In this document: in pieces, positions 1,704-10,683 of the stretch
How positions within the stretch are numbered: position 1 is the stretch's first letter
Layout of the letters: each line of letters starts with the position of its first letter
Assembly: GCF_001570785.1 (NCBI RefSeq)
Contig: NZ_BCSI01000001.1
Coordinates: forward strand, 248,001-312,000
Reading direction: 5' to 3'
Source of the DNA: Dermabacter hominis NBRC 106157
GTDB lineage: Bacteria; Actinomycetota; Actinomycetes; Actinomycetales; Dermabacteraceae
Length of the DNA stretch: 64,000 nucleotides
Program-made: the position numbers and the translations under genes
Notes under the pieces: model-generated
The model's input: only the letters and a program-made list of their open reading frames with translations
What the model was told of the DNA's origin: nothing
Databases searched by the model: none

Positions 1704-2213
1704 ATGCCTGCACCCACTAAGGGCGCTCGACTCGGCTCGTCCCCGGCTCACGAGAAGGCTATTCTCGCGAACCTCGCGACTGCCCTTTTCGAGCACGGTG
1801 CCATCACCACGACGCAGACCCGCGCAAAGCGCGTTCAGCCTCTCGCTGAGCGCCTCATCACCCAGGCGAAGAAGGGCGACCTTGCCAATCGCCGCCGTGT
1901 GATGCAGACGCTCAAGACGAAGACTGCCGCGCACGTTCTCATGACTGAGATCGCTCCGAAGTTCTCGGACCGCCCCGGCGGCTACACCCGCATCACGAAG
2001 CTCGAGAACCGCAAGGGCGACAACGCCCCCATGGCCCTTCTTGAGCTCGTGGAGGAAGAGTACTCGCCGAAGCAGGCCGTCGTGAAGGAAGCCGAAGGCG
2101 CTGCCAAGGCATCCGCAAAGGCCGACGAAGCTCCCGCTGAGGAGACGAAGGTCGAAGAGACCGCGGCTGAGGAAACGCCCGCAGAGGAGACTACGGAGAA
2201 CACCGAGGCCTGA
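1704..2213 (+). CDS. rplQ: 50S ribosomal protein L17
   Basis: Residues 1 to about 118 are a standard L17 core, with [17 protein letters not shown] near the start and [22 protein letters not shown] in the middle. The remaining 50 residues are an alanine- and glutamate-rich tail (repeats such as PAEET and VEETAAEE), a low-complexity extension often seen in actinobacterial L17. The ATG follows GAGGAGA. It is the last gene of the ribosomal/RNA polymerase cluster and is followed by a strong hairpin terminator. Confidence 0.97.
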
Positions 2214-2244
2214 TTCACGCGTAACCGGCTCTTAGAGCAATAAG

Positions 2245-2278
2245 GAAGGCCCGCCCCGATCCGTCGGGGCGGGCCTTC
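2245..2278 (+). terminator. Hairpin terminator after rplQ
   Basis: A perfect 14-bp inverted repeat (GAAGGCCCGCCCCG and its complement) encloses a 6-base loop, 31 bases after the rplQ stop. There is no long T-tract, as is common in high-GC actinobacteria. It lies between convergent genes and could serve both strands. Confidence 0.85.
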
Positions 2279-2339
2279 TCGCATCGCTGCAACGTTGCTG
2301 CGCACTAGCCGCGCAACTACCTCGCATCGGTGTGGCGTC

Positions 2340-3506
2340 TTAGCTCCCGTAGAGGGACTCTGCTTCGGCGCGCTTGCGCGCATACGCCTTATCGAACCCG
2401 CTTTGCCCGCGAGTATCCGCGACAGAAGGAACGTTGTGGCCTGGACGCGCGGAAAGCCACCCTGATCCCAGCTCGATGAGCGACTCGTGCTTGGTCGTGT
2501 AGTACTGGCCGGGATCCACGAGTGCAAAGCCGCGGGCCCCGCGCGAGGCGGCTACGAGATGGTGGTGGAATCTGGTGCTGATCCAGAACTGTCCGGGCGA
2601 AATTCTGAACGGTTCGGTCCAGAAGTCGCTGAACGGGACGAAGCGCGAGAATTCGATCCCGCGGGCAGTGAGGGCCTCGATGCCTCGGTAGTCAACGCCC
2701 GGAAGCGCTTCCACATAGGTGAGTCGGGCATGCGCGAGGGCCGCATCGTGAAGGGCTGATTCAACCGTGTCGAGGAATGCTTCGAAGCTACCGTCGCCGA
2801 TCGCATCCGACTGTACGCACACCACCACCTCGTTGACGTCCCCAAGTGGCGCACCCAGCTGCGCGAGCCCGAGGAAAGCATCATCGAGCCCAGTGGTAGT
2901 GGCGGCGAGCTCAGCGCTTTCGTCGTCACGAACACTCACGTGCGCGAAGCCCTCGAAGCTCGCTCCGGCGTCGGGTATCAGGCCCTGTCCGGTCGCGATG
3001 AGGCGTGCCCCCGAGACCGCGGCTGAGGCGCGCATGCCTTCGAGGAGCCCAAGGTTCTTCGGCCAGCGGCTATTGAGGAAGCCCCCGCCGAGCAAGTGAA
3101 GTGTCGTCGCGCGGTTCATTTCGGCGATTTGGAGATCGAATAGGGGGCTGCCCCTGTGCGTGACGATCTCTGCGATGCTGCGCGGTTCCCACTCCTGGTC
3201 CGCGAGCTCTAGCACGCGGTAGAGCGTGTCAGTCGTGGTGAGGTTCGGGTGGTCGCCGCGGAACAGCACACTGGCAGCACCCGGGTGACGGCAATCGAGC
3301 CACACCTGAGCCTCGGGCTTGGTTTCGGCGAGGAAGCGAAGCCAAGTGCGGGCGATGAGTTCGTCCCCGTAGTTGGGGTAGCCGGCCATCGAGACGAGGT
3401 AGATGCGCTCGCCTGCCCCTCGGGAGCTTTCGCTCGACACATCGTGATTCGCGGTGGTGGTGCCGGCCTGCGGCTTTTTCCGCTCGAGAAATCTAGAGAA
3501 GGCCAC
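2340..3506 (-). CDS. Polysaccharide pyruvyl transferase family protein (CsaB-like)
   Basis: The protein has the polysaccharide pyruvyl transferase fold: an N-terminal nucleotide-binding-like segment with GYPNYGDELIARTWLRFL, a central LHLLGGGFLNSRWPKN, a G-Q-G-L-I-P segment, and a C-terminal ISTRFHHHLVAASRG with the conserved histidines. In bacteria with SLH surface proteins, CsaB enzymes of this family add pyruvate ketals to the secondary wall polymer that SLH domains bind. The upstream gene encodes an SLH-domain amidase and overlaps this gene by 14 bases, which supports that role here by inference. I chose the GTG at 3506 because GGAG lies 4 bases upstream. A GTG at 3440 is also possible, and a longer frame opens at 3548. 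Confidence 0.8.
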   Translation of the reverse strand: MAFSRFLERKKPQAGTTTANHDVSSESSRGAGERIYLVSMAGYPNYGDELIARTWLRFLAETKPEAQVWLDCRHPGAASVLFRGDHPNLTTTDTLYRVLELADQEWEPRSIAEIVTHRGSPLFDLQIAEMNRATTLHLLGGGFLNSRWPKNLGLLEGMRASAAVSGARLIATGQGLIPDAGASFEGFAHVSVRDDESAELAATTTGLDDAFLGLAQLGAPLGDVNEVVVCVQSDAIGDGSFEAFLDTVESALHDAALAHARLTYVEALPGVDYRGIEALTARGIEFSRFVPFSDFWTEPFRISPGQFWISTRFHHHLVAASRGARGFALVDPGQYYTTKHESLIELGSGWLSARPGHNVPSVADTRGQSGFDKAYARKRAEAESLYGS

Positions 3507-5523
3507 GGTGCTCCATATAGCGGTAGAGGAAGGCCGCCAGTTCGGCACGTGTGGTCTGGTTGAAGGGGCGATAGGTGCCGTCGTCCCATCCGCGTGAGAT
3601 GCCGGTCGATCCCATCCATTTGATTTCCTTCTCGAACACGAGCGAGGAATTCACATCTTTGAAGCCGCCGAATTTCACCCCCGAGAGGCTTTCCCCCGAG
3701 GCGCGGAAGAGGAACGCTGCCATCGCGTCGCGGAGAATCGGCTGGTAGGGGCGGAACTCCCATCCTCCGCGGACCTTCCAACCCGTTGTGAGGCCCGTGG
3801 AGTGTGCCCAGCAGATTTCCTTGTAGAAGGGCTGGCTCCGGTCGACGTCGAGGAAGGGGGAGGTTCGCGGAGCGGTGTATGAGGGTTCTTTGGCGATTCG
3901 GTACATGTAGGCGATAACCGCGTCTCGCCACACAGAAATTTGAGGGCGGAATGTGCGGTCAGGCCAGCCCCGAATCACGCCGAGATCGGCGAGGGTATTG
4001 ATTTCGTGCGCAAAGATCAGGTTGTCGGGAACGTCGACGAAGTGCTTCGTGCGCGTTCCGCCCGGAGTAAACGACACCTTTCCGTTGACCTTGGTGGCAG
4101 TGCCGTTCTCGAAGCGCTGGGTGGTGCCCGTCGTGCTTTCGAGGGGGCGTCCCCAGGCGGGCGTCCAGTCGGCGCCGAAGGCACTCTTGTGAGCGCTCGT
4201 GCGTCCACCTGCCGTGAGAATAAGCCCATCCGTGAGGCGAGTGACGTCGTAGGTCCCTTCTGCCCGGCGAACGTGCGTGACGGTTCCGAACGCGCCACGC
4301 CCGCCGCCGTTGACGTAGGCAACGAGGTGCTCGGGGTAGCTCTCCTTGAATCCGTTGAGCTTTTGCTGCACGAGACTACGCAGGTTCGGAAGCTGGCCGT
4401 AGTAGGTGTCTCCCGGGCAATCCGTGTAGTTCACGTCGCGGTGCGCGAAAAGGTGGGGCATGGAGAAGGTGCCGCTGCGTTTCACGTTCGAGGTGGTGAC
4501 GGTCCAGGTCTCGGTGCCGTACACGTCCTGAGTGAAGGTGCTGGCGAGCTTCCACGCGGCCACGGTTGCGATGGCGTTGAGCGCCGCGGTGGGCACGGGA
4601 ATGTCCATGTAGTCACCCATGACGGAGATGCCGCATGAGCCCGTGTTGAAGCCGCGGGCGTGGGCGCCGGCAACGTTGCGGTGCAGGCCACCCGCGCGCC
4701 CTTCAAAGATTTGCCCGTATTTGTCGACGACGACGTTGTAGCCGAGGTCGGCCCAGCCGAGGGTTTTGGTGTGGTAGGTGAACATACCGCGCACGACCTG
4801 AGGGCTTTGCGCCGCCGTGTAGGTGTTGGAGCCGCCCGTGTGGTGGATGCAGATCGCCTTGAGTTCCTTCGCGTAGCTCAAGCGCGAGGTGTCAACCGTG
4901 TCTGCGTTCCACTCCTCACGGGTGATGAACGTTGGTGCGCCGGTGCCGGGCGTCACGGTAGCGGGCAAAATACGGGTGACGCCGGTACCGCCGCCGCTTG
5001 AGGCGAGGCGCACGTCGCTGCGTGATTCCGACGTGGTGATGAGGTGCGCGGTGAGCTGCTCGGAAATGTCGATGCCATCGCGGAAGGCGCGCACGTTGAC
5101 CGCGCTCGAGGGCCCGACCCACACGGCTTCGCTCGCGTTCTCATCGATGTCGGTCATGAGTTCGGCGCTCAGCCAGTCGCCCCATTCTCCGGTATTGAGG
5201 TCTTTGCCCTGGAACTCCACCACGTCGGGGGAGTCAACGTCGGAGGGCCAGCTTGCGGCGGCCATGGTGATGTACCCGGTGACGTGCTTCGCGGGGGTGC
5301 CGTCGAGTTCGGGGTTTTTATCCGTGGCGCCGTGAGTGTGGACGGTGTCGGTGTGCTTGAGGTCGCGTTCGACGACGGCGGTGTCGCCGTCACTGGGGGC
5401 GGGGGAGCCGTCGGCAAGGGCAAGGCCCATTCCGAGAGCGCCCACTCCAGCTGCGGCGAAGGGGGTGACGGCACCGACTTTGAGTAGGGTGCGGCGATTG
5501 ACGGGGGATTCTTTGAAGCTCAT
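3493..5523 (-). CDS. Tat-exported N-acetylmuramoyl-L-alanine amidase with three SLH domains
   Basis: The 676-residue protein starts with a twin-arginine signal (NRRTLLKVG at residues 9-17, then a hydrophobic stretch to about 37). Residues about 198-380 form a PGRP/amidase-2 domain: ICIHHTGGSN holds the zinc-ligand histidine (H227/H228), and HRDVNYTDCPG holds H351 and C359. This fold cleaves the bond between N-acetylmuramic acid and L-alanine in peptidoglycan. Residues about 484-534, 547-598 and 610-666 are three SLH repeats; the last has the TRAE motif (TTRAELAAFLYR). SLH domains bind pyruvylated wall polymer, so the enzyme is probably held non-covalently at the cell wall. The gene overlaps a CsaB-like pyruvyl transferase, probably as a two-gene operon. 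Confidence 0.9.
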   Translation of the reverse strand: MSFKESPVNRRTLLKVGAVTPFAAAGVGALGMGLALADGSPAPSDGDTAVVERDLKHTDTVHTHGATDKNPELDGTPAKHVTGYITMAAASWPSDVDSPDVVEFQGKDLNTGEWGDWLSAELMTDIDENASEAVWVGPSSAVNVRAFRDGIDISEQLTAHLITTSESRSDVRLASSGGGTGVTRILPATVTPGTGAPTFITREEWNADTVDTSRLSYAKELKAICIHHTGGSNTYTAAQSPQVVRGMFTYHTKTLGWADLGYNVVVDKYGQIFEGRAGGLHRNVAGAHARGFNTGSCGISVMGDYMDIPVPTAALNAIATVAAWKLASTFTQDVYGTETWTVTTSNVKRSGTFSMPHLFAHRDVNYTDCPGDTYYGQLPNLRSLVQQKLNGFKESYPEHLVAYVNGGGRGAFGTVTHVRRAEGTYDVTRLTDGLILTAGGRTSAHKSAFGADWTPAWGRPLESTTGTTQRFENGTATKVNGKVSFTPGGTRTKHFVDVPDNLIFAHEINTLADLGVIRGWPDRTFRPQISVWRDAVIAYMYRIAKEPSYTAPRTSPFLDVDRSQPFYKEICWAHSTGLTTGWKVRGGWEFRPYQPILRDAMAAFLFRASGESLSGVKFGGFKDVNSSLVFEKEIKWMGSTGISRGWDDGTYRPFNQTTRAELAAFLYRYMEHRGLL

Positions 5524-5565
5524 GGGGAAGTGCTTTCTTGTGAGGGGAAGTCGGCCTTACCATAG

Positions 5566-5600
5566 CGCACGCGGGCCTTCGCTGGGAAGGCCCGCGTGCG
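5566..5600 (-). terminator. Hairpin terminator after purL
   Basis: A perfect 15-bp stem (CGCACGCGGGCCTTC paired with its complement) with a 5-base loop lies just beyond the purL stop on the minus strand. It separates purL from the SLH amidase gene that follows on the same strand. No T-tract follows. Confidence 0.75.
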
Positions 5601-5613
5601 TCATCTGACCGGG

Positions 5614-7908
5614 TTAAGCGAGGTGCTCGGGGAGCGTTTGGGCACGGCGCTCGTGAAGCTCCGCGAGGGGGAACGTTCCGACGCCAGCCAGCTCCAGGCC
5701 GTCGCCACCACTTGTGCCGATGCGAGCCGCGGGGACCGACGCGCTGCGTGCGAGTTCCTCGAGGGCTGGGGCATCGTCAGGGCGCACCGCGACGATCGCT
5801 CGCGCGTGCGACTCTGAGACGAGGGCTGTGAACGAATCGATGCCGTCACGGTCGATCACGGTCGTGAGGTCGATCGATGCGCCCGTGTCGAATCGAGTGG
5901 TGGATTCGACGAGTGACTGGAAGAGGCCGCCTTCGCTGAGGTCGTGGCTTGCACGTGCGATTCCCTGGTCGGCCGCACCGATGAGTACGGTAGCGAGGGC
6001 TTTTTCGTGTGCGAGCGACACGCGCGGGGGTGTGCCGCCGAGGTGAGCGTGGGTGGCGTCGGCCCACGCGGAGCCCGAAAGCTCCTCGCGAGTTTCACCG
6101 AGAAGGTAGATGGCAAGCCCTTCTTCGTGCCATCCGGAGGGCACCCTCGTCGCGACGTTGTCAAACACGCCGAGGACGCCTACGACGGGGGTCGGGTGGA
6201 TTGCAGAGTTGAGGCGGCCGGGCTCGCCCGTGGAGTTGTACAGGGAGACGTTGCCGCCGGTCACGGGAACTTCGAGCTCCTGGCAGGCGTCGGCGAGCCC
6301 CGTGATTGCTTCGACGAACTGCCACATGCGGTCGGGATCTTCGGGGGAGCCGAAGTTGAGGCAGTCGGTCACGGCGAGGGGACGCGCGCCTGTCGTGGCG
6401 ACGTTGCGGTAGGCCTCCGCGAGCGCGGCGCGTGCGCCTTCTTTCGGGTTCAGCATCGCGAAGCGACCGTTGCCGTCGGTGGCGATGGCGATGCCGCGGC
6501 CCGTTTCTTCGTCGATGCGGAGCACACCTGCGTCGTCGGGCATCGCGAGCGCGGTGTTGCCGCCGACGTAGCGGTCGTATTGGTCGGTGACCCATGCGGT
6601 GCTCGCGAGGTTTGGGGAGGTCGTGAGTGCCCACAGCTGCGCAACGAGCTCGTCGGTGCTTGCGGGGCGGGGGAGGTCTTCGGCGCGGTCGGCCTCGAGG
6701 GCGTCCTGCCATGCCGGGCGCGCGTAGGGGCGGTCGTAGGTGGGGCCCTCGTGCGCGACGGTCGTGGGATCGACGTCAACGATGCGCTTGCCGTAGTGGT
6801 CGATCGTGAGCCGTCCCTCGCCCGTGACTTCGCCGATGACGGCGGCTTCAACACCCCACTTGTCGGTGATGGCGAGGAATTCCTCGAGGTTGTCGGGGGT
6901 GACGACGGCCATCATGCGCTCTTGCGATTCGCTCATGAGGATCTCGCCCGCGGTGAGCGTCGGGTCGCGGAGGAGCACGTTTTCGAGGTCGATGTGCATG
7001 CCGGAACCGCCGTTGGATGCGAGTTCGCTCGTTGCGCACGAGATGCCCGCGGCGCCGAGGTCCTGGATGCCTTCGACGGTGCCCTTCGCGAAGAGCTCAA
7101 GGCAGCACTCGATGAGCAGCTTCTCCATGAACGGGTCGCCGACCTGGACGCTCGGGCGTTTCGCCGGGCCCTCGTCCTCGAAGGTTTCGGAGGCGAGGAT
7201 CGACGCGCCGCCGATTCCGTCGCCACCTGTGCGTGCACCGAACAGCACGACCTTGTTGCCGGCGCCTGTCGCGGAGGCCAGGTGGATGTCCTCGTGGCGA
7301 AGCACGCCCACGGCGAGGGCGTTGACGAGGGGATTGGTTTGGTAGGCGGGGTCGAACACGGTTTCACCGCCGATGTTGGGCAAACCGAGGCAGTTGCCGT
7401 ATCCGCCGATACCGGCGACGACGCCGGTGGCGACTCGCGCGGTATCCGGGTGGTCGATCGCGCCGAATCGGAGCTGATCCATGACGGCGACTGGGCGGGC
7501 CCCCATCGAGATGATGTCGCGGACGATGCCGCCAACGCCGGTCGCAGCCCCCTGGTAAGGCTCGACGTAGCTCGGGTGGTTGTGCGATTCTACCTTGAAC
7601 GTCACGGCCCAGCCGTCGCCGATGTCAACGACGCCAGCGTTCTCGCCGATACCCACGAGGAGGTTTTCCTTCATCGCGGGGGTCTGTTTCTGGCCGAACT
7701 GTTTGAGGTGGATCTTGGAGGACTTGTACGAGCAGTGCTCAGACCACATAACGGAGTACATGGCGAGCTCGGCGTTCGTGGGGCGGCGGCCGAGGAGCTC
7801 GCGGATCTTCGCGTATTCCTCTTCCTTGAGGCCCAGATCGGCCCACGGCTGCTGTTCGTTCGGGGTTTCACGCGCCCGCTCGATCGTGTCTGGCTCGTGC
7901 GTGTTCAT
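5614..7908 (-). CDS. purL: Phosphoribosylformylglycinamidine synthase subunit PurL
   Basis: This 764-residue protein is the small-type PurL that works with separate PurS and PurQ to convert FGAR to FGAM in purine synthesis, using ATP and glutamine-derived ammonia. Family motifs include [54 protein letters not shown] and [13 protein letters not shown], and a C-terminal SHDLSEGGL region. Length fits the family (about 720-770). The ATG follows GGAGGA at 11 bases. purS and purQ are about 4 kb away on the same strand, and purC-purD about 10 kb away, so the pathway is grouped but not one operon. Confidence 0.97.
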
Positions 7909-7950
7909 GCTCGCGGCTGTCCTCCGTGTCGGTTGTTCTCAGCACCTCGT

Positions 7951-7956
7951 ATTTTA
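7951..7956 (-). promoter_or_regulatory. Putative -10 element of purL
   Basis: On the minus strand the hexamer TAAAAT lies about 43 bases before the purL ATG, which would give a leader of roughly 36 nt with a ribosome-binding site. I see no convincing -35. Confidence 0.4.
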
Positions 7957-7996
7957 CGACGTCGCGCACGGTAACGCGGAATGGCAGAGTAGAGAC

Positions 7997-8932
7997 ATGT
8001 CGCCTTCCACGAAGACTCTTGCGCGCGTGCCGAACGCCGCCGCCGCGTGGGCAGCGATTCTCACCCGTGCGCCCGTCGCGCGCGCCGAGGACGTTCCCGA
8101 CCGCCGCTATAGCGTGCGCGGTGTTGCCATTGAGGAGCGGCGCGCCCTGCGCTATTCGCGCGTCGTTGCGCCTCATGGAAGGGACGCGTGGGCTGATGCG
8201 CATCTCGCCCACCCCGGTTTCTTGCATGCCCTCGCGCATCCGCTCGGGCTCGCACTCATGGCGCGCCCGCGTTTTCCGCTTCCCGCGCTCGGGCTTGTGC
8301 ACGTCAAGAATTCGCTCTTGTTGCACCGGCCAGTGTGCATAGGCGAGAGAGTCGACATTGAGACACGCATTGGGAGCCTCGTACGCGCTTCACGGGGGAG
8401 CACGTGCGAAGTGGTCTCGGTGTTGTCGAGCGGGGGTGACATCGTCGCGACCGACGTCTCGACGTACCTGCTGCGTGGCTCCGGTAATTCTGCGAAGCGT
8501 GCAAAGTCTCTCCAGACCGAGGCGGCTCCTTTCGCCTCGACGGCGTCTCCGTCGCGCTGGAAGCTCTCCGCGGGTGTGGGGCGCGAGTTCGCACGAGTGA
8601 GCGGCGATGTCCACCCGATTCACGTGAGCGCGCTGAGCGCACGTGCGCTTGGCGCCCCTTCTCCGCTTGCCCACGGCATGTTCCTGGGATCGCGTGCGCT
8701 CAGCGAAGTCGAAGTAGGGGCGCACTCTCCGCTTTTGTGGGAACTCGAGTTCCCGTCGCTTCCGTCTTTGCCTGCAACGGTGTGGGTGCGGTACGGGCGA
8801 GAGGAGCCGAAGGAAGGGACGGAGCGCGGTTCGGTCGCGTTCTCAGGGTTCAGCCTTCGGGGTCCGACGCCTGCCGATCGCACGGCGCACCTTGCCTTTT
8901 CTGGCCGCGTAACGGTCCTTGGAGGCGCATGA
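7997..8932 (+). CDS. MaoC-like hotdog-fold dehydratase/hydratase domain protein
   Basis: The 311-residue product has a double-hotdog arrangement. The C-terminal half carries the hydratase-2 motif SGDVHPIHVSALSARALG followed by PLAHGMFLG, the MaoC family's Asp/His active-site region; MaoC enzymes hydrate enoyl-CoA-type thioesters. The substrate cannot be told from sequence. The start chosen gives MSPSTKTLARVPN; the upstream bases CAGAGT-AGAGAC-ATG resemble a weak leaderless start, the same arrangement as at xseA. It is divergent from purL and upstream of fmdB-fmdA with a 130-base gap, so it may be a separate unit. Confidence 0.8.
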   Translation: MSPSTKTLARVPNAAAAWAAILTRAPVARAEDVPDRRYSVRGVAIEERRALRYSRVVAPHGRDAWADAHLAHPGFLHALAHPLGLALMARPRFPLPALGLVHVKNSLLLHRPVCIGERVDIETRIGSLVRASRGSTCEVVSVLSSGGDIVATDVSTYLLRGSGNSAKRAKSLQTEAAPFASTASPSRWKLSAGVGREFARVSGDVHPIHVSALSARALGAPSPLAHGMFLGSRALSEVEVGAHSPLLWELEFPSLPSLPATVWVRYGREEPKEGTERGSVAFSGFSLRGPTPADRTAHLAFSGRVTVLGGA

Positions 8933-9062
8933 GAGCCCCGCGTGGCCTCAGTAAACTCAAGAAGATTTCAGGAACCTCGATGCGGTGGGCGTTAGCGTGA
9001 TTTAAGCAAAGACGAAGGTGGCGCGGGAATTGCGTCGCCGAAGGTGCGGACGAAGGAGTGCC

Positions 9063-9350
9063 ATGCCCCTGTACGAGTTTCGGTGCGGTGAAGGTCACCT
9101 CAGCGAAGCACTGCTGCCGATGAGCAGCACGACTCGAGAACGCCAGTGCCCCGAGTGCGACACCACCGCGAAGCGCCTCGTGAGCGCACCCGCTGTGCGG
9201 TCGCTCGATCCAGCACTGACAAACGCGATCGATTCAGCGAAGCGCAGCGCCTATGAGCCCCAGGTTCATTCGTCGCTTCCCTCTTCGCGAGGCGCCAAGC
9301 CCACCCCTGTATCGCACGATCCGCGCCATCGTGCACTTCCGCGTCCCTGA
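9063..9350 (+). CDS. fmdB: FmdB-type zinc ribbon protein
   Basis: The 95-residue protein starts MPLYEFRCGEGHL and has ECDTTAKRLVSAPAV, matching FmdB (CxxCG_CxxC_SSSS family). The typical four-cysteine knuckle is partly degenerate: C8 and the CPEC pair are visible, but a glycine occupies another usual cysteine position (CGEGH). In methylotrophs fmdB is a proposed regulator of amidase genes and lies next to fmdA, as here. AAGGAG sits 5 bases before the ATG. fmdA begins 36 bases after its stop, so the two are probably co-transcribed. Confidence 0.85.
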   Translation: MPLYEFRCGEGHLSEALLPMSSTTRERQCPECDTTAKRLVSAPAVRSLDPALTNAIDSAKRSAYEPQVHSSLPSSRGAKPTPVSHDPRHRALPRP

Positions 9351-9386
9351 CGCCCCGAGTAGGCAAGCAAAGGAGCACACAGAGCC

Positions 9387-10643
9387 ATGCCTAAGAATCT
9401 TTTCCCGCTTGATTCCACGAAGTCGTTCAAAGACCAGGACATCGTTGGCCACAACCGTTGGCACCCGGACATTCCAGCGGCCGTCACGGTAAACCCCGGC
9501 GACACGTTCCGCATCGACTGCCGCGAGTGGTTCGACGGCGACATCAAGAACGATGACAGCGCCCAGGACATCCTCGAAGCCCCCGTGAGCAAGGTCCACG
9601 CACTTTCGGGCCCGTTCCACATTAAGGGTGCGAAGCCGGGCGACCTGTTGATCGTGGACATCCTCGACGTTGGCCCGATTCCGCAGGAAGATGAGGGCCC
9701 CCTCGCGGGTCAGGGCTGGGGCTACACCGGCATCTTCGCGAAGAACAATGGCGGCAGCTTCCTCGTGGATCAGTTCCCGGATGCCTACAAGGCTGTGTGG
9801 GACTTCAACGGCCAGACCGCGACCTCGCGCCACGTGCCCGGAGTGTCGTTTACGGGCCTCATCCACCCGGGTCTCATGGGCACGGCGCCCTCGCACGAGC
9901 TTCTCAAGAAGTGGAATGACCGCGAGGCCGCGCTGATCGCCACGGACCCGAACCGCCTGCCCCCGCTCGCGCTCCCGCCCGAGCCGAAGGATGCGGTTCT
10001 TGGCACGCTTACCGGCGACGACTTCGATCGCGTCGCAGCCGAGGGGGCACGCACCGCTCCGCCGCGCGAAAACGGCGGTAACCAGGACATCAAGAACCTC
10101 TCGAAGGGCACGCGCGTGTTCTACCCCGTCTACGTGGATGGCGCGCACTTCTCGGTAGGCGACCTGCACTTCTCGCAGGGCGATGGCGAGATCACCTTCT
10201 GTGGCGGCATCGAGATGTCGGGCTTCATCGACGTGCACGTCGATGTCATCCCAGGCGGTATGGACAAGTACAACGTCAAGGAAAACGCGATCTTCATGCC
10301 CGGCAATGTCGAGCCGCGCTACAGCGAGTGGATTTCCTTCTCGGGCACGTCCGTGACGCTCGACGGCGAGCAGCGCTACCTCGATTCGCAGCTTGCCTAC
10401 CAGCGTGCCTGCCTCCACGCGATCGACTACCTCACGACCTTCGGCTGGACGCCGGAGCAGGTCTTCCTCCTGCTCGGCGCCGCGCCGATCGAGGGCCGCT
10501 TCTCGGGCGTCGTTGACATCCCGAACTCGTGCGCGACCGTGTACATCCCGACCGCCATCTTCGACATCGACGTGCGCCCCGGCGCAGGCGACGTGCCGAA
10601 GATCGATCCGGGCATCGGGGCGCCGCGCGCCGCGAACGCGTAA
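9387..10643 (+). CDS. fmdA: Acetamidase/formamidase
   Basis: The 418-residue protein belongs to the FmdA/AmdA family that hydrolyses formamide or acetamide to ammonia and the acid. Visible family features are the N-terminal GHNRWHPDIPAAVTVNPGD, the DGAHFSVGDLHFSQGDGEI metal-site region, GGIEMSGFIDV and a C-terminal VVDIPNSCATVYIPTAIFD. Length agrees with the roughly 407-residue Methylophilus enzyme. It follows fmdB closely and ends before a strong hairpin, so fmdBA forms a self-contained unit. It probably releases nitrogen from short amides; formate from formamide could meet pyruvate formate-lyase metabolism, but that is speculation. Confidence 0.92.
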   Translation: MPKNLFPLDSTKSFKDQDIVGHNRWHPDIPAAVTVNPGDTFRIDCREWFDGDIKNDDSAQDILEAPVSKVHALSGPFHIKGAKPGDLLIVDILDVGPIPQEDEGPLAGQGWGYTGIFAKNNGGSFLVDQFPDAYKAVWDFNGQTATSRHVPGVSFTGLIHPGLMGTAPSHELLKKWNDREAALIATDPNRLPPLALPPEPKDAVLGTLTGDDFDRVAAEGARTAPPRENGGNQDIKNLSKGTRVFYPVYVDGAHFSVGDLHFSQGDGEITFCGGIEMSGFIDVHVDVIPGGMDKYNVKENAIFMPGNVEPRYSEWISFSGTSVTLDGEQRYLDSQLAYQRACLHAIDYLTTFGWTPEQVFLLLGAAPIEGRFSGVVDIPNSCATVYIPTAIFDIDVRPGAGDVPKIDPGIGAPRAANA

Positions 10644-10683
10644 GGCAAAGAAGCGTTCATACCCGCGAACGCTCCTTGCACCT

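Follow-up and report, generated by a model that had tools for sequence, protein, structure and literature searches.

A polysaccharide pyruvyl transferase (PPT) gene of Dermabacter hominis overlaps the gene of a predicted zinc amidase that carries three SLH repeats, and this pairing recurs across the family. Taken as a whole, the evidence is best explained if the two genes form a translationally coupled anchoring module, a reading to which we give a probability of about three in four. The genes, their domains and overlap, the conserved residues, the conserved pairing and the joint replacement of amidase tail and transferase in a sister species are all observed directly, in the window (the whole stretch of 64,000 nucleotides analyzed here, from strain NBRC 106157, contig NZ_BCSI01000001.1, positions 248,001 to 312,000) or in its relatives.

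The Amidase-PPT Locus

The source genome comprises 2.155 Mb across 28 contigs. The features of the locus, in window coordinates, are:

2248..2275, no strand: inverted repeat GGCCCGCCCC...GGGGCGGGCC, possible shared terminator, between the convergent rplQ and PPT genes (from the sequence)
2340..3506, minus strand: PPT gene, 388 aa, GTG start at 3506, PF04230 over cut-off
3493..3506, minus strand: overlap of the amidase and PPT genes, 14 bases, read from the sequence
3493..5523, minus strand: SLH amidase gene, 676 aa from the ATG at 5523, with matches to Amidase_2 and SLH that exceed their Pfam cut-offs
3511..3514, minus strand: GGAG, possible ribosome-binding site of the PPT gene (from the sequence)
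3535..3663, minus strand: SLH repeat 3, residues 621-663 (GISRG, TRAE)
3718..3858, minus strand: SLH repeat 2, residues 556-602 (GLTTG, LRDA)
3916..4044, minus strand: SLH repeat 1, residues 494-536 (GVIRG, WRDA)
4411..4866, minus strand: catalytic domain (Amidase_2) at residues 220-371, which contains H227, H361 and C369
5410..5523, minus strand: probable twin-arginine (Tat) signal, residues 1-38, NRRTLLK followed by a hydrophobic stretch

The locus runs rpsK-rpoA-rplQ, then on the opposite strand PPT (3506-2340) and the amidase gene (5523-3493), then purL (5614-7908), the neighbors being genes that we take from their translations to be those named. An earlier note on this DNA had described a 14-base overlap between the two genes, and this is borne out exactly: the stop codon of the amidase lies at 3495-3493, and the PPT gene begins with the GTG at 3506. 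The GTG-Ala-Phe-Ser start of the transferase is also present in D. indicis.

The same note had described a zinc amidase with three SLH repeats, and the domain analysis confirms this. The 676-aa reading frame matches Amidase_2 at 51.3 bits (cut-off 26), and H227, H361 and C369, which occupy the zinc-ligand positions of this family, do not vary among 6 aligned sequences; the nearest solved structures are PGRPs. SLH (PF00395) matches in three stretches with 63.3 bits against a curated cut-off of 20.8. Tat export is predicted from the motif alone, because the Pfam TAT model scored 10 bits, under its cut-off of 22.7; the RR motif is retained in the amidase homologs of the genus Dermabacter. A whole-amidase AlphaFold model, built with 6 sequences, was of low confidence (mean pLDDT 60.6) and was set aside.

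Pairing Across the Family

It is the recurrence of the amidase-PPT arrangement across family genomes that takes it beyond chance. Of the 47 genomes compared, an SLH amidase occurs in 31, and in 25 of the 47 the SLH-amidase gene adjoins a PPT gene. Adjacent pairs are co-directional except in G008, where they are convergent, and pairs on one contig show either a short overlap or a gap of up to 116 bp. Irregular pairs are those of G040, split by a contig end, and G041, in which the amidase and the SLH part lie in two frames. In G017 a tandem pair of SLH amidase genes stands ahead of the PPT gene (L084:2696-7402), and at two loci a third gene follows it (L079:5235-6959 and L080:5078-6859), the product of which has three SLH repeats together with LGFP repeats; that of L079 also contains PG_binding_1 and NlpC/P60 domains (Pfam).

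Two kinds of transferase occupy the same slot: the short PPT of the window's type, found in 11 genomes, and a PPT-GT2 fusion, found in 17, with no genome carrying both (hypergeometric p 0.003, uncorrected for kinship). The two types are only remotely related (profile probability 97.4, in an alignment that matches up their Arg and Arg-x-His motifs), and their presence in one slot is what functional equivalence would predict. Fusions adjoin SLH amidases at loci L089, L093, L094, L097 and L096, the last of these (the convergent pair of G008) having the domain order GT2-PPT. The fusion frame of G043 (L118:2082-4514) has an in-frame TAG and is either a pseudogene or an assembly error. No close stand-alone counterpart of the fusion's GT2 was found in the short-type genomes, where even the best matches did not exceed about 50 bits.

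Of the 31 genomes with an SLH amidase, 27 also carry a PPT of the short or the fusion type, as against one of the eight genomes whose amidase lacks SLH (Fisher p 1.5e-4); in the single PPT-positive genome with an SLH-less amidase (G013), both genes lie at contig edges. An independent-pair test on the phylogeny found about four of four pairs concordant (p 0.125), too few for significance, and since this kinship-corrected test is so small, the conserved adjacency is the stronger argument. Four genomes (G014, G015, G019 and G035) have an SLH amidase and neither PPT type that could be found, which counts against the anchoring-module explanation.

In the structure of SpaA, Gly29 and Arg43 of SLH touch the pyruvate (PMC6081394). 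Both are retained in all three repeats of the window's amidase, and Trp13 in two of the three. They are intact in every repeat of the PPT-linked amidases (69/69), and each of them in 10 of the 12 repeats of the four SLH-amidase genomes that have neither PPT type. In G014 and G015, Pro replaces Gly29 and His replaces Arg43; these genomes are sisters on the amidase tree, so that this was probably one event.

An SLH-Linked Clade of Transferases

In a tree of 80 short-type PPTs, the window's transferase belongs to a 25-member clade (SH-aLRT 99) drawn from Dermabacteraceae, Kocuria and Rothia, with one row labeled Curtobacterium. An SLH gene lies within 1.5 kb of 21 of the 25 clade members and of 0 of the 55 PPTs outside the clade. 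The four clade members without an SLH gene at this distance count against the anchoring-module explanation. The SLH neighbors are amidases in Dermabacter and Brachybacterium, a GDSL lipase in Rothia and a subtilase at the Kocuria locus that was scanned, other Kocuria loci encoding SLH proteins similar in size and place. The catalytic domains of these proteins are unrelated, so that SLH is their common feature. Beyond the tree's clade set, a more distant short-type PPT (G081) adjoins the gene of an SLH protein with a GH25 domain, and a PPT of G085 lies near an SLH deacetylase gene. A Pseudarthrobacter locus in which an SLH subtilase gene overlaps a split PPT frame (L210) was excluded from the tree because its PPT lies in two short frames.

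The window's PPT matches PS_pyruv_trans (PF04230) with 40.3 bits against a cut-off of 25.3 (Pfam, scanned from a longer in-frame start at 3548). Among 30 relatives R312, H314 and K339 are invariant and R193 is conserved in at least 90%; by motif rather than by superposition, these four correspond to the PEP-site residues of CsaB, R148, R306, H308 and K328 (PMC10435577). The NCBIfam CsaB model (TIGR03609, cut-off 213.1 bits) gives the other SLH-adjacent PPTs of this study 35-81 bits and the window's PPT 13.3 bits, a score that rules out identity as a CsaB equivalog. The "CsaB-like" of the earlier note thus holds only for membership in the Pfam family, and neither as an equivalog nor, as set out below, for the pathway. 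Structure prediction gave a confident model (pLDDT 88.8) with a GT-B-like fold, and a fold search with it (Z up to 18 to epimerases) gave UDP-GlcNAc 2-epimerases and glycosyltransferases as the closest among the matches listed. Pvg1p (5ax7) was not among the matches listed, which were all GT-B relatives, so that this search is uninformative on pyruvyl transfer; when the PPT profile was run against the sequences of the PDB, nothing matched.

Joint Exchange With LGFP Repeats

G001, a single-contig genome of the genus Dermabacter, has an orthologous amidase at the same locus, 81% identical over residues 1-489, in which LGFP repeats stand where the SLH trimer would be, and its genome has no PF04230 match. 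By blastn the window and G001 align at 1-2191 and 4097-10647 only, leaving one block:

2192..4096, minus strand: SLH tail, PPT gene and spacer, no DNA match in G001 (blastn)

Compared with D. indicis, the DNA of G001 is 91% identical as far as the rplQ-amidase spacer and 88% identical once the amidase body is reached, and the sole differing block is 1.77 kb of SLH tail and PPT in the one and 0.9 kb of LGFP in the other. The amidase tree places G001 as sister to D. indicis, nested among species with SLH and PPT, which makes joint loss the shorter reading.

LGFP amidases also occur in two further genomes, G002 and G029, in which no PPT could be found. In G002 (L108:7314-10049) the gene of this amidase has the opposite orientation, with respect to its neighbors rplQ and purL, to that in the other Dermabacter. 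The amidases of G012, G021 and G034 have no recognized anchor, and these genomes have neither PPT type, other PF04230 genes being present. A second SLH-like protein is encoded in the window's genome (G000:C5:95.5-96.3 kb; L109:5508-6332), with 274 aa, no catalytic domain and an RR near its N-terminus. Its repeats are partly degenerate. All four Dermabacter have this protein, even the two that lack a PPT, and its persistence in those two counts against the anchoring-module explanation.

Proposed Mechanism and Predicted Acceptor Sugar

We infer the steps of pyruvyl transfer, export and wall binding, and the identity of the sugar, from the genes. In the cytoplasm, the PPT would take pyruvate from PEP and add it to a sugar in the precursor of a wall glycopolymer, and the pyruvylated polymer would be exported and then attached to the wall. 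The folded amidase would leave by the Tat route and would stay on the wall through the grip of its SLH trimer on the pyruvylated sugar, with Arg43 forming a salt bridge and Gly29 contributing its backbone.

The pathway around the transferase appears to differ from that of CsaB. Searches of the four Dermabacter for the TagA family (PF03808) found no member. The ManNAc epimerase (PF02350) has a match in the window's genome and in that of G002, but none was detected in G001 or in D. indicis, although the latter has the pair. The UDP-GlcNAc 2-epimerase gene of the window's genome lies at G000:C6:37191-38174 (L255). In the known pyruvylated wall polymers of actinobacteria the pyruvate is carried on Gal, GalNAc, GlcA, Kdn or polyols (PMC6801904), which together with these negative searches makes a sugar other than ManNAc likely. 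The predicted acceptor is thus probably not the ManNAc of the Bacillus type, and an unrelated transferase or epimerase could serve as a stand-in for TagA or MnaA.

Alternative Explanations

The PPT may instead pyruvylate a capsule, an exopolysaccharide or a teichoic acid that serves a role of its own, with the SLH gene a mere neighbor that recombination carries along. The SLH tail and the PPT gene are contiguous, so one recombination could swap both without any functional need, and a single crossover accounts for the joint replacement in G001; PPTs outside the clade have no SLH neighbors, so that this type of enzyme also has other uses. This explanation does not sit well with a pairing that recurs with two remotely related transferase types and with SLH partners that have unrelated catalytic domains, in other genera and in other gene orders, and we consider it unlikely. 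That the PPT alters the wall so as to regulate the amidase rather than to anchor it (for example, by shielding or marking peptidoglycan-linked glycans at cut sites) would fit the fact that its closest partner within the family is a wall hydrolase, but the partners found in Kocuria and Rothia, subtilases or GDSL lipases, have only SLH in common with it, which makes such regulation very improbable.

The fold matches listed, closest to UDP-GlcNAc 2-epimerases and glycosyltransferases, and the very low CsaB score would also suit a glycosyltransferase or other GT-B enzyme that adds no pyruvate, with the SLH trimer binding a non-pyruvylated polymer. We consider this very improbable, however, since the PF04230 match is over its cut-off, the motif residues corresponding to the CsaB PEP site are conserved and the SLH residues that contact pyruvate are intact. 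The anchoring module thus remains our preferred reading. The earlier note saw the pair as an enzyme together with the producer of the anchor that holds it. Apart from the CsaB label, this interpretation finds strong comparative-genomic support in the conserved adjacency, the joint replacement, the SLH-linked PPT clade and the intact SLH ligand residues.

Relation to Known Anchoring Systems

That SLH domains grip CsaB-made pyruvate is already known in principle, and reviews have inferred a functional coupling of SLH proteins and adjacent pyruvyl transferases (PMC6801904, PMC6081394, PMC6030368, PMC10435577). The locus resembles this Bacillus/Paenibacillus system in its SLH trimer, with Gly29 and Arg43 in every repeat, and in the PF04230 pyruvyl transferase encoded next to the SLH gene. 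It departs from it in that the Dermabacter PPT is not a CsaB equivalog and belongs to a genus where PF03808 was not found; in that csaB of P. alvei is co-transcribed with tagA and tagO (PMC6030368), while the Dermabacter PPT is coupled to the gene of an SLH hydrolase; and in the exchange of the anchor with LGFP repeats in a sister species. The LGFP-repeat amidases of G001, G002 and G029, likewise Amidase_2 (PGRP-type) enzymes, share with it, in G001, an orthologous catalytic part at the same locus, but they carry LGFP in place of SLH in genomes in which no pyruvyl transferase was found.

The wall glycopolymers of Promicromonospora, Nocardiopsis and Brevibacterium show that actinobacterial walls can bear pyruvate ketals; SLH proteins are common in Actinobacteria, and a 2019 review knew of no function, such as protein anchoring, associated with these pyruvylated polymers (PMC6801904). 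A literature search, with most subscription journals beyond reach, found no paper that treats SLH anchoring for Brachybacterium, Kocuria or Dermabacter, nor any wall chemistry of the strains concerned; in the literature searched, neither this actinobacterial form of the system, nor its separate transferases, nor the exchange of cassettes with LGFP appears to have been described. We would give even odds to the fuller proposal that Dermabacteraceae and Micrococcaceae use SLH anchoring with a PPT clade of their own acting on a sugar other than ManNAc, that the maker of the ligand is gene-coupled to the SLH protein, and that the whole anchor is exchanged as a cassette with an LGFP anchor.

Relatives keep, swap or lose the pair jointly, and this makes the proposed actinobacterial anchoring system directly testable. 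The locus offers both a concrete candidate function for the pyruvylated polymers of actinobacteria and a natural experiment, in the form of Dermabacter with and without the module. With two transferase types, one of them fused to GT2, the acceptor sugars could be identified. The findings suggest that SLH domains may recognize pyruvylated sugars besides ManNAc, and that a wall hydrolase can switch its address label by a joint swap of the gripping domain and the maker of its ligand.
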